From assembly GCA_022835495.1 (NCBI GenBank), contig BQOK01000001.1:682001-746000 (forward strand): a stretch of DNA of 64,000 bases. Direction: 5' to 3'. This document shows, one piece after another, positions 11,552 to 14,289 of the stretch (its first letter is position 1; every line of letters starts with the position of its first letter). The notes below the pieces were generated by a model. It searched no databases. It saw nothing but the letters and a program-made list of their open reading frames with translations, and was not told where the DNA came from. The DNA comes from Oscillospiraceae bacterium (GTDB taxonomy: Bacteria > Bacillota > Clostridia > Oscillospirales > Ruminococcaceae). The translations under genes and the position numbers were made by a program.

Positions 11552-12043
11552 ATGGAGATCGAGCGCAAATGGCTGGTGCACGGCTGGCCCGAGCGGCTGG
11601 GCGCGGCGCGGGTGCTGCACATGCGGCAGGGGTACATCAGCCTGCGGCCGACCGTGCGCATCCGGGAGGAAAAGCAGGAGAGCGGCACCGCGTGGGTGCT
11701 GTGTTTCAAGGGCCCGGCGGGAAAAGACGGGCTTTCCCGGGAGGAAATTGAGACCGAAATCGACCCCCGGCTGTTCGGGCGGCTGGAGGCGCTGATCGGA
11801 AAGCCCCTGATTGAAAAGGAGCAGCGGCGGTACGCCCTGCCGGACAGGCTGGAGCTGGAAGTGAACCATGTGGATCCGGGGGGAACGGAAGAATTCTGGT
11901 ACGCGGAGGTGGAATTTGCCACCGAGGCGGCGGCCCGCGCCTGGAAGCCGGGCGAGCTGGCGGCCTATCTGTTTGACGAGGTGACCGCGAAGCCGGGCCA
12001 GAGCATGGCGGCCTACTGGGCCCGCACCCGGGGCGGGGAATGA
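11552..12043 (+). CDS. CYTH domain protein
   Basis: A 163-residue protein starting MEIERKWLV, which carries the CYTH signature ExExK at its first strand. The rest shows alternating charged strands typical of the triphosphate tunnel metalloenzyme fold (VRIREEK, WVLCFKGPAGKDG, LSREEIETEID, LEVNHV, WYAEVEF, GQSMAAYW). Members act on triphosphates: adenylate cyclase IV, thiamine triphosphatase or inorganic triphosphatase. The class in Firmicutes is mostly uncharacterised. ATG 11552 has AAAGGTG upstream. It is divergent from the rRNA methyltransferase, from which it is separated by about 135 bp. Confidence 0.85.
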   Translation: MEIERKWLVHGWPERLGAARVLHMRQGYISLRPTVRIREEKQESGTAWVLCFKGPAGKDGLSREEIETEIDPRLFGRLEALIGKPLIEKEQRRYALPDRLELEVNHVDPGGTEEFWYAEVEFATEAAARAWKPGELAAYLFDEVTAKPGQSMAAYWARTRGGE

Positions 12044-12133
12044 GCGCTGAGAGATAACGGGCTGCTGCAAAATGAATTTGCGATGGCAAATTGCGCAAAG
12101 AACCAGTTCCAGAACGCCGAAACGCAAAGAAAA

Positions 12134-12174
12134 CGCCTTAACAAGCTTTCTCAGCTGTGTTAAGGCGCTTTTTT
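12134..12174 (+). terminator. Terminator after the CYTH gene
   Basis: A 10-bp stem (12134-12143 with 12158-12167) is followed by CTTTTTT. The 12044-12133 stretch before it is AT-rich and holds no gene I can support. Confidence 0.75.
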
Positions 12175-12214
12175 ATGTGCTGTTTTTTGCCGGGTGATGT
12201 TGCGGCAGCCGCTT

Positions 12215-12409
12215 TTATCCGGCCCGCCGCAAGGCCTTTTTTGCGCGCTTGAGGCTTTGGTAGAGCGGCTGGGGCAGGATGCCGATCACATCCAGGCAGA
12301 GGGCGAGCGCCGAGGCCGCGCCCAGGACCAGCTCGGGCAGCGGCACAAAGCAGTTGAGGCCGAAGGCCGCCGCGTATACCAACAGGCCGAGCTTAAGTTC
12401 TGTTCTCAT
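12215..12409 (-). CDS. Small membrane protein, 64 residues
   Basis: Begins MRTELKLGLLVYAA at ATG 12409 behind GAGGAAAACG and has two hydrophobic segments (about 5-25 and 28-46) with a basic tail (KRAKKALRRAG). It overlaps the end of the preceding gene (12393-12599) by 17 bases, so the two are translationally coupled. It is the last gene of the XRE-led operon read from 13346. Function unknown; the operon type resembles small membrane proteins with an autoregulating XRE repressor. Confidence 0.7.
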   Translation of the reverse strand: MRTELKLGLLVYAAAFGLNCFVPLPELVLGAASALALCLDVIGILPQPLYQSLKRAKKALRRAG

Positions 12410-12599
12410 CGTTTTCCTCCGGTTTTGGCTGGCTGCGCATTCTGGCGGTGGTGAAGGCCAGAACAAACATAGCCGCCAGGGTAAGCACCCCCGCGGTGCG
12501 GACCGCCCAATCCGCCATGGGGACGGCCAGCCAGCGGGAGAGCAGCACGACGGCCCCGAAGGCCCCGATCACGGCACTGATGCGCCTCGTCAATTTCAT
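12393..12599 (-). CDS. Small membrane protein, 68 residues
   Basis: Starts at ATG 12599 behind AGAGGTGGATC. Two hydrophobic segments (about 8-26 and 34-52) are followed by a polar tail ending ENDENRT. Its last codons contain the ribosome binding site and start of the next gene. It is third in the XRE-led operon. No family recognised. Confidence 0.7.
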   Translation of the reverse strand: MKLTRRISAVIGAFGAVVLLSRWLAVPMADWAVRTAGVLTLAAMFVLAFTTARMRSQPKPEENDENRT

Positions 12600-12647
12600 T
12601 TTGATCCACCTCTTATAAATTGTTGCAGGGCTTGCGCTGCGGGGGGC

Positions 12648-13139
12648 TTACATGCTGCGGGAGCAGATCGCGCGGAAAATGGCCAGCAGCACGAACGCGC
12701 TCACCGCACAGTAGAACAGGGTGTAGAACACGGTCATGTTGAAAAAGCTGGACACCAGCATGGCGACATACAGCCCGAACAGCAGGGTGAAGGCCGTGAG
12801 GTTCAGCGCCCGGGCAAACACAGCCTGGTTGCGCTCGTCCTGCTCTTCCAGGCGGGTGCGGCGCAGCTTTTCCTCGTTGTTCAAAAGGGCGCGGGTGCGC
12901 GCGGCCAGCACCGCCCCCGCCAGCGTGAGCCCGACGCCGATGCCGCACCAGATCCCCTCCAGGTGGGCGGTATCGTGAGCCTCGGCGATCCGGCCGCCCA
13001 TCAGCAGCAGGGTGACGGCCAGGGTGAGCACACCCAGGACCGAGAGGCCGCAGAACAGCCGGACACGGCGGCGCAGGGCGGCTTTGTATTCCTCCAAAGT
13101 GGCGTTCTTTGCAGGGCAGCTGAACAATTTGATCAACAT
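12648..13139 (-). CDS. Four-helix membrane protein of the XRE-led operon
   Basis: A 163-residue protein with a short cytoplasmic N-terminus and four predicted membrane helices (about 30-48, 63-82, 112-130, 135-155); the loop between helices 2 and 3 is charged (NNEEKLRRTRLEEQDERNQ). ATG 13139 follows GGAGGAATAACTT, which begins inside the stop region of the XRE gene, leaving only three bases between them. Such small XRE-membrane protein pairs are common in Clostridia, where the membrane protein has been proposed to sense envelope conditions; no function is proven here. Confidence 0.75.
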   Translation of the reverse strand: MLIKLFSCPAKNATLEEYKAALRRRVRLFCGLSVLGVLTLAVTLLLMGGRIAEAHDTAHLEGIWCGIGVGLTLAGAVLAARTRALLNNEEKLRRTRLEEQDERNQAVFARALNLTAFTLLFGLYVAMLVSSFFNMTVFYTLFYCAVSAFVLLAIFRAICSRSM

Positions 13140-13142
13140 AAG

Positions 13143-13346
13143 TTATTCCTCCACTTCACTGAAATCGAATACCTGTTCGATGGGAAGCCCGAAATACCGG
13201 GCGAGCTTGTAGGCCAGCACCAGGCTGGCGGTGTATTTTCCAACCTCGAGGCTGGTGATGGTCTGCCGCGTTACGCCCACCGCGTCGGCCAGCTCCTGCT
13301 GGCTGAGCCTGCGGGCCTTGCGCAGCTCCGGGATTCTTGTATCCAA
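13143..13346 (-). CDS. Short XRE repressor (67 residues)
   Basis: A single helix-turn-helix domain (LSQQELADAVGVTRQTITSLEVGK) with almost nothing else, the minimal XRE type. The frame has a stop just upstream (TGA five codons before), so the start must be TTG 13346; AGGAG lies 12 nt upstream. It heads an operon with three membrane-protein genes. The promoter at 13410-13438 is covered by three copies of a TGCAAAG/CTTTGCA operator, so autorepression by this protein is likely. Confidence 0.88.
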   Translation of the reverse strand: MDTRIPELRKARRLSQQELADAVGVTRQTITSLEVGKYTASLVLAYKLARYFGLPIEQVFDFSEVEE

Positions 13347-13386
13347 ACCGCATCACAACTCCTGTCTTGTTATTCTGCGCAGATGA

Positions 13387-13450
13387 TGCAAAGCGTCCTT
13401 TGCAAAATTAGTATAGCTTGCTTTGCAATAAATGTCAAGCGCGCTTTGCA
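13387..13450 (-). promoter_or_regulatory. XRE operon promoter with three phased operators
   Basis: The minus-strand promoter is TTGACA (13433-13438), 17 bp, TATACT (13410-13415). CTTTGCA occurs at 13398-13404, 13421-13427 and 13444-13450, exactly 23 bp apart. The first is half of the perfect palindrome TGCAAAGCGTCCTTTGCA (13387-13404) at the start point; the second lies in the spacer with a weak partner over the -10 box; the third pairs with TGTCAAG over the -35 box. This is a textbook repressor layout. Confidence 0.85.
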
Positions 13451-13536
13451 AAAAAATTAAAACAAGATTTTGCCAGGTCAAAACCGCACCCTTTTTGCCC
13501 CGCGTGGATAAAGTGATGAAAAGGGGGTAGAGGGAA

Positions 13537-14289
13537 TTGAACCAGGTGATCGCAGCGATATCCATGGACCTGTTTCCCACCATCTGCACGGCTGTGGGGG
13601 CAGGGTTCGTTTTTTTTGTGGGCAACAAGGACACGCCGGAGGCGCGGCGCAGCATGCTGGGGCTGGCCGCGGGGGTGATGCTGGCCGCCAGCGTGTTCAG
13701 CCTGCTGCAGCCGGCTATTGAGCAGGCCAGCGCCCAGGGCAAAAGCGGCTGGCTGGCGGCCAGCGCCGGGCTGGTGCTGGGCGCGGCGGGGCTTTTGCTG
13801 ATGGAACAGTGGGCCGGCCGGCTGCTGGCGGGCGGCAAAGGGCACAGCGGGCGGGTGATCTTTGCCATTGCGCTGCACAACCTGCCCCAGGGCATGGCGG
13901 TGGGCCTGACCGGGGCGCTGGCCCTGACGGGGGATCCCAACACGGTGGCGGGCGCTGTGGCGCTGAGTTTAGGCATTGGGCTGCAGAACATCCCGGAGGG
14001 GGTGGCTGTGGCCTTTCCGGTGCGCCAGGCCGGGGCCAGCAAGGCCAAGGCGTTTGCGGTGGGCACGGCCAGCGGCCTGGTGGAGCCCTTGGGGGCGGCG
14101 CTGGGCGGCGCGCTGGCGGGCAGCCTTTTGGGAGCGATGCCCTGGCTGCTGAGCCTGGCGGCGGGCACCATGGTGTGCGTGACCGCGCAGGAGCTGATCC
14201 CCCAGGCGGCGGAGGACGGCAAAGCCGGCATCTTTTGTGTGGTGCTGGGGTTCGCCATTATGATGGCGCTGGACGTGGCGCTGGGATAA
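13537..14289 (+). CDS. ZIP family metal transporter (GufA-like)
   Basis: A 250-residue protein with about eight membrane helices of the ZIP family, which moves Zn, Fe or Mn into the cytoplasm. The two metal-site helices are visible: HNLPQGMAVG in helix 4 and LQNIPEGVAVAFP in helix 5. The usual helix-4 motif is HNxPEG, so the Glu is replaced by Gln here. The start is TTG 13537 behind AGGGGG; an in-frame ATG occurs nine codons later. It is divergent from the XRE operon, 90 bp from the operator array. Whether it shares that control is not clear. Confidence 0.85.
   Translation: MNQVIAAISMDLFPTICTAVGAGFVFFVGNKDTPEARRSMLGLAAGVMLAASVFSLLQPAIEQASAQGKSGWLAASAGLVLGAAGLLLMEQWAGRLLAGGKGHSGRVIFAIALHNLPQGMAVGLTGALALTGDPNTVAGAVALSLGIGLQNIPEGVAVAFPVRQAGASKAKAFAVGTASGLVEPLGAALGGALAGSLLGAMPWLLSLAAGTMVCVTAQELIPQAAEDGKAGIFCVVLGFAIMMALDVALG

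Follow-up and report, generated by a model that had tools for sequence, protein, structure and literature searches.

Three copies of the heptamer CTTTGCA stand in front of a gene for a small XRE regulator in the genome of an Oscillospiraceae bacterium (contig BQOK01000001.1). They raise two questions: which protein would bind them, and why they are so regularly spaced. The window referred to below is the whole stretch of DNA analysed, 64,000 nucleotides in length. The initial annotation took the three copies to be operators for the XRE protein, lying over that protein's own promoter.

The array, its promoter and the operon

On the plus strand, CTTTGCA was found at 13398-13404, 13421-13427 and 13444-13450, in the 23-bp steps that the initial annotation had reported. 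The first copy is joined by TGCAAAG at 13387-13393 into the perfect palindrome TGCAAAG CGTC CTTTGCA. The opposite arms of the other two are weaker, as had also been noted: AGTATAG in O2 matches in 4 of 7 positions and TGTCAAG in O3 in 5 of 7, against 7 of 7 in O1. Along the minus strand, O3 comes first, followed by five bases, O2, a further five bases, O1 and, after 40 nt, the XRE gene with its TTG start (Table 1).

The array covers the start point, the -10 and the -35 of a TTGACA-17-TATACT promoter, again in agreement with the earlier description, and this promoter lies on the minus strand. It scored 11 of 12 matches and was the sole promoter-like pair that a consensus scan detected in 12000-13700, where shuffled sequences gave a mean of 0.4.

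Table 1. Coordinates of the array, the promoter and the operon genes within the window.
Feature	Position	Strand	Description
Operator O1	13387..13404	-	gene strand TGCAAAG GACG CTTTGCA; perfect arms; at predicted transcription start
Operator O2	13410..13427	-	gene strand TGCAAAG CAAG CTATACT; weak arm contains -10 hexamer
Operator O3	13433..13450	-	gene strand TGCAAAG CGCG CTTGACA; weak arm contains -35 hexamer
-35 hexamer TTGACA	13433..13438	-	consensus promoter scan
-10 hexamer TATACT	13410..13415	-	17 nt from -35; consensus promoter scan
67-aa XRE (HTH_3) regulator	13143..13346	-	TTG start; recognition helix TRQTITS with T31
163-aa predicted multi-helix membrane protein, QDER motif	12648..13139	-	second operon gene
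68-aa predicted membrane protein (PMADWAVRTAG)	12393..12599	-	probable third operon gene

The gene that follows the array encodes a 67-residue XRE protein, as annotated. HTH_3 (Pfam PF01381) matched residues 7-57 with 56.6 bits against a cut-off of 23, which places the protein in the XRE/HTH_3 family. It consists almost entirely of the HTH domain, and its matches to CylR2 (1utx) and 9k3w span 56-58 residues.

Between the end of the XRE gene and the start of the second gene lie three bases. The assignment of the latter's product to the membrane rests on hydrophobic stretches and on a helical structure model (pLDDT 89.6). A fold search of the PDB with this model found nothing at or below E 0.001, the best match having E 2.4. 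The family to which the protein belongs has no Pfam family; DUF2178, DUF6442 and DUF7937 each matched one of 59 members at E 0.001 or better, and the window's own protein scored 30.4 against DUF7937, below the cut-off of 31. D101 and E102 were invariant in 59 homologues. A simple motif search detected proteins of 60-70 aa resembling the putative third gene product ('PDW-R--G') in four of the 80 related loci (L122, L124, L134 and L141). The divergent neighbour of the operon is a ZIP-type transporter gene (13537-14289).

Uniqueness of the array

Lone CTTTGCA heptamers are common in the window (22 instances, 14.2 expected), and the repeats might be supposed to have arisen by chance in an AT-rich intergenic stretch. 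However, the array was the only equal-step triple of 7-mers (step of 60 bp or less) in the 64 kb, two overlapping words reporting the same array, and none of 20 first-order Markov simulations of the window contained such a triple. An origin by chance is practically inconceivable, having already been refuted by the conservation of the array across the loci described below.

Within the 3.76-Mb genome, a pair of CTTTGCA 23 bp apart occurred without mismatch only at this array, and the 18-bp perfect palindrome of O1 only at this locus. The search for this palindrome elsewhere in the genome, which the initial annotation had proposed, thus recovered no second exact copy. Two palindromes with one mismatch were considered as further targets and rejected, on their reading frames only; one of them sits within long open frames. 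The other, the near-perfect palindrome CTTTGCAGCTGCAAAG (G000:C1:1454567-1454593), belongs to a longer stem that immediately precedes a rimM-like frame, in a position unrelated to any promoter-operator array.

Conservation across relatives

Bacterial and archaeal genomes were scanned with the XRE protein, yielding 80 loci with 74-88% identity, chosen by XRE similarity. They came from Bacillota (Faecalibacterium, Gemmiger, Paenibacillus, Saccharibacillus, Clostridium, Acetobacterium, Blautia and others) and from Coriobacteriia (Olsenella, Enorma and Collinsella). Two were labelled Leptolinea or Chloroflexi, but these are metagenome bins and could be misbinned. A template of the array with 42 fixed positions, for which a fit was called at 32 or more, fitted 73 of the 80 loci and the window itself (74 of 81 rows), and all 74 sequences were distinct. 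The absence of the array from orthologous loci, which would have spoken against the operators, was therefore not what we found.

The sequence of L062 was masked and that of L095, L101 and L116 had O1 20 bp rather than 23 bp from O2; none of these four fitted the template. L063 had a single palindrome, L077 one extra base between the -35 and O2, and L093 had lost one repeat. In L093, L094 and L115, the stretch from the array to the XRE gene seemed to code for a short predicted membrane peptide.

A blind search with the DNA pattern was also made in 391 genomes of the class. It recovered the array, with at most one mismatch, in 11 genomes (the window's own included), and the reversed pattern gave no match in the same 391. 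All 11 arrays preceded an XRE homologue. The DNA pattern by itself locates the operon in unannotated genomes. A conserved operator in its own promoter, kept together with the gene, is one of the marks of an autoregulated small XRE repressor, and this one was observed. The second gene was detected by BLAST with the window's membrane protein at 7 of the 11 arrays; when no more than an open frame of 120-190 aa containing DER or DEL was required, all 80 related loci had it.

Among 50,697 phage records, 11 contained a relative (E 1e-8 or better), and among 72,556 plasmid records 143 were recovered, of which 142 had less than 60% identity. The best of the phage matches, L223 (MT837605.1), is an unannotated 6.5-kb faecal clone named 'Bacteriophage sp.' in which the array is complete and both the XRE gene and the membrane protein are present. 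We read it as either bacterial contamination or a mobile copy; a phage origin was rejected and nothing was drawn from this match.

Origin of the 23-bp step

With a 17-nt spacer, the distance from the start of the -35 to the start of the -10 is itself 23 bp (6+17). In the array, C-TTGACA and C-TATACT stand as the downstream arms of O3 and O2, in place of the full arm CTTTGCA. The step is therefore best explained by the promoter, whose hexamers double as half-sites, and not by the face of the helix. The initial annotation was right to equate 23 bp with about 2.2 turns (2.19 at 10.5 bp per turn), but the dimers would not lie on nearly the same face, as it proposed: adjacent sites are about 69 degrees apart and the first and third about 137 degrees.

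The relatives gave the same picture. O3 and O2 were 23 bp apart in 128 of 130 arrays (near-duplicates included in these and the following spacing counts). Of the two others, L188 had a distance of 22 bp and a promoter spacer of 16 nt, and L077 a distance of 24 bp and a spacer of 18 nt. A non-consensus C in the fifth place of the -10 (TATACT) was present in 126 of 127 promoters with O2, compared with 10 of 18 without it, and a C just before the -10 in 126 of 127 compared with 5 of 18. These -10 counts take in the window's own genome (L148) and duplicates. The search template favours CTATACT, a bias that runs against the reported contrast. L057 and L167 were left out of the spacing and -10 tables, and five more loci, whose helix fell outside the regular expression, out of the -10 counts.

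The equal step between O2 and O1 is not forced by the promoter. Nevertheless, O3 and O1 were exactly 46 bp apart in 114 of 126 arrays with O2 (43 bp in 7), compared with 12 of 42 without O2, in which the distance ranged from 43 to 53 bp. The rigid step between O2 and O1 is a hint of contact between neighbouring dimers. A second discrete spacing, with O1 20 bp from O2 and 43 bp from O3, was seen in L049, L055, L095, L101, L116, L166 and L186.

Operator shape and symmetry

Among the 74 arrays the upstream arm was strong in all three operators, reading TGCAAAG in 69 (O3), 69 (O2) and 64 (O1). The downstream arm of O1 was perfect in only 22 and degenerate in the other relatives, with CTTAGCA, CTATGCA and CATTGCA as common variants. 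Both arms of O1 were perfect in 17 arrays, and the window belongs to this minority. The bases flanking the arms were Y and R in 73, 74 and 73 of the 74 for the three operators, and the operator is better written as TGCAAAGY-NN-RCTTTGCA. O1 of the window is an exception to the flanking rule, with G where Y is usual.

The decreasing symmetry had been taken by the initial annotation to predict graded affinity, similar in logic to phage operators. Carried further, this would give a lambda-like switch in which the perfect site is filled first and the others in order of symmetry, with stepwise control. The order within the window (O1 perfect, O3 with 5 of 7 and O2 with 4 of 7) fits such a switch, as does the contact between dimers that the O2-O1 step suggests. 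However, the symmetry of O1 is not conserved, and the arms of O2 and O3 are weak because they are the -10 and -35 hexamers. In addition, the XRE protein, being nearly all HTH, lacks the C-terminal domain through which phage repressors could cooperate, and the mechanism implied by the phage comparison is unavailable to it. We consider a graded switch rather unlikely. Affinity graded by symmetry may hold in the window, but it is not a conserved design.

O1 lies at the predicted start and in the window would pair as RNA, and it could instead be read as a 5'-terminal hairpin acting in mRNA stability or attenuation, the other sites being relics. The relatives argue against this. The arms of O1 pair perfectly in only 17 of 74 arrays; the left arm is near-constant, and pairs 4-6 depart from A-T in 16, 14 and 16 of the 74, mostly as A-A mismatches. 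The lack of compensating changes counts against a hairpin, and O2 and O3 carry the identical left arm upstream of the start. A hairpin as the main function of O1 is thus very improbable and was rejected.

Covariation of residue 31 with the half-site

Searches of genomes from the window's family and phylum, made with the membrane protein (76 of 396 genomes) and with a profile built from it (37 of 299), recovered loci that had the same operon with other half-sites. The covariation set comprised 187 loci, reduced to 177 unique loci by removal of 10 near-duplicates and to 162 by removal of 15 without a perfect arm. Residue 31 lies in the recognition helix TRQTI-x-S and corresponds to position 32 of the 434 repressor, an exposed position of that helix. 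It tracked base 3 of TGnAAAG in 154 of the 162 loci, as T/C, I/T and G/G. Threonine occurred with C in 106 of 106 loci, isoleucine with T in 19 of 19 and glycine with G in 29 of 30, the remaining one having T. Serine did not form a clean class (T in 6 of 7, C in 1). Base 3 was scored as the commonest base of a locus, and single arms deviate from it; for example, 13 of 315 arms from T31 loci had T. A broader table of arms, in which T31 occurred with 146 T arms, counts chance sites and -35 arms and was not used as evidence.

Column 31 carried 1.199 of the 1.263 bits available over the 162 loci, and the next best column 0.883. A tree for which residue 31 had been masked showed 10 base changes and 11 residue changes. 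Independent pairs numbered at most two on supported branches and at most six when every branch was counted; they were neutral or ran in the expected direction, and are not enough to reach significance. The covariation points to the XRE protein as the binder, though few of the changes are independent.

A small XRE gene can be under the control of some other protein, and the one here might be merely the target of another host regulator that binds the repeats. However, the array occurs without mismatch once in the genome, each of the 11 arrays found blindly precedes an XRE homologue, and the base in the half-site changes with residue 31 of that same XRE protein. Another regulator is accordingly improbable as the binder.

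The architecture also varied among relatives. Those with G31 had two operators, at the -35 and at the start, with O2 absent in 32 of 32. In a sister subfamily with the helix SxRTII (L061, L159, L168, L179 and L220), the half-site was shorter: two TGAAG-YNNR-CTTCA palindromes, spaced by 16 bp, directly followed the -10 ahead of the XRE gene, in the same kind of operon. Since both half-site and layout differ in this subfamily, the wider family does not share the three-operator architecture throughout.

Proposed circuit

The XRE protein is very probably a Cro/CylR2-like autorepressor of an operon comprising its own gene and that of the membrane protein, with the three sites as its operators. The conservation of the array and the covariation of residue 31 with base 3 both support this reading, which agrees with the initial annotation in placing an operator array for the XRE protein over its own promoter. 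A dimer would read the palindrome given above. Dimers on the three sites would cover the hexamers and the start point, so blocking the polymerase and keeping the operon low. Repressor and RNA polymerase would compete for the same bases, the hexamers being the weak half-sites of O3 and O2, and loss of occupancy would turn the operon on. The repressed genes would be those of the XRE protein, the QDER membrane protein and then the small membrane protein. Repression rather than activation is suggested by the position of the sites, and neighbouring dimers may cooperate. By analogy with CylR1, which is believed to act in this way on CylR2, the membrane protein might modulate the repressor.

As an XRE protein the regulator is ordinary, and so is self-repression among such proteins. 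What is unusual is that the hexamers serve as half-sites in register with the operator period, which is the same as the distance between the promoter's -35 and -10, and that this layout is kept nearly letter for letter across Bacillota, Coriobacteriia and records labelled Chloroflexi. We found no published description of such a promoter-operator layout in the open-access literature searched. In the same literature, no paper had 'tttgcaaag' together with 'operator' and 'repressor', or an XRE family together with a membrane protein and DUF2178, and 'tgcaaag' with 'xre family' gave nothing relevant by title.

More tentatively, the locus could represent an ancient, widespread and undescribed circuit. 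Promoter and operators would form one periodic 23-bp element, its second half-site turned into the -35 and -10 and its register kept across the family. Residue 31 would act as a natural specificity switch for C, T or G at base 3, and the repressor would be controlled by a new QDER/NDER family of membrane proteins, a CylR1/CylR2-like signalling pair across Bacillota and Coriobacteriia. We consider this broader picture possible, but somewhat doubtful as a whole. The arrays offer a natural series in which to test how repressor and polymerase share bases, and the covariation lets a switch in specificity be predicted for a single residue. The array is also a promoter-anchored handle on the unnamed membrane protein family.

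Comparison with known systems

CylR2 of Enterococcus faecalis (PDB 1utx) is an XRE protein of 66 aa with no extra domain, and it matched residues 6-61 of the window's protein with E 1.7e-10; the latter is thus CylR2-like also in its length of about 66 aa. CylR2 and CylR1 likewise pair an XRE regulator with a small membrane protein, a likeness of arrangement. CylR2 binds its own promoter region, and the portion of that report consulted does not describe a three-site array (PMC3709268). CylR1 and CylR2 control a divergent lantibiotic operon, whereas the divergent neighbour in the window is the ZIP-type transporter gene, and no adjacent lantibiotic or cytolysin operon was found there. The best sequence match in the PDB was 9k3w ('Transcriptional regulator, PbsX family'), an XRE protein of 65 aa (E 1.3e-14). 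Both CylR2 and 9k3w have N at the position that aligns with T31.

The right operator of phage lambda has three operators about 23-24 bp apart over the -35, the -10 and the start, bound by Cro and CI; the operators are asymmetric and Cro is a protein of 66 aa. The layout in the window resembles this operator with Cro. Unlike in lambda, there appears to be one promoter, with one regulator, and there is no sign of a phage locus. The 67-aa protein, HTH only, has no CI-type C-terminal oligomerisation domain. With respect to a divergent promoter, the consensus scan, which can miss promoters, gave the one minus-strand site in 12000-13700, and the ZIP gene is divergent. The array in the window differs from the lambda operator, finally, in that the half-sites themselves contain the promoter hexamers, in register.
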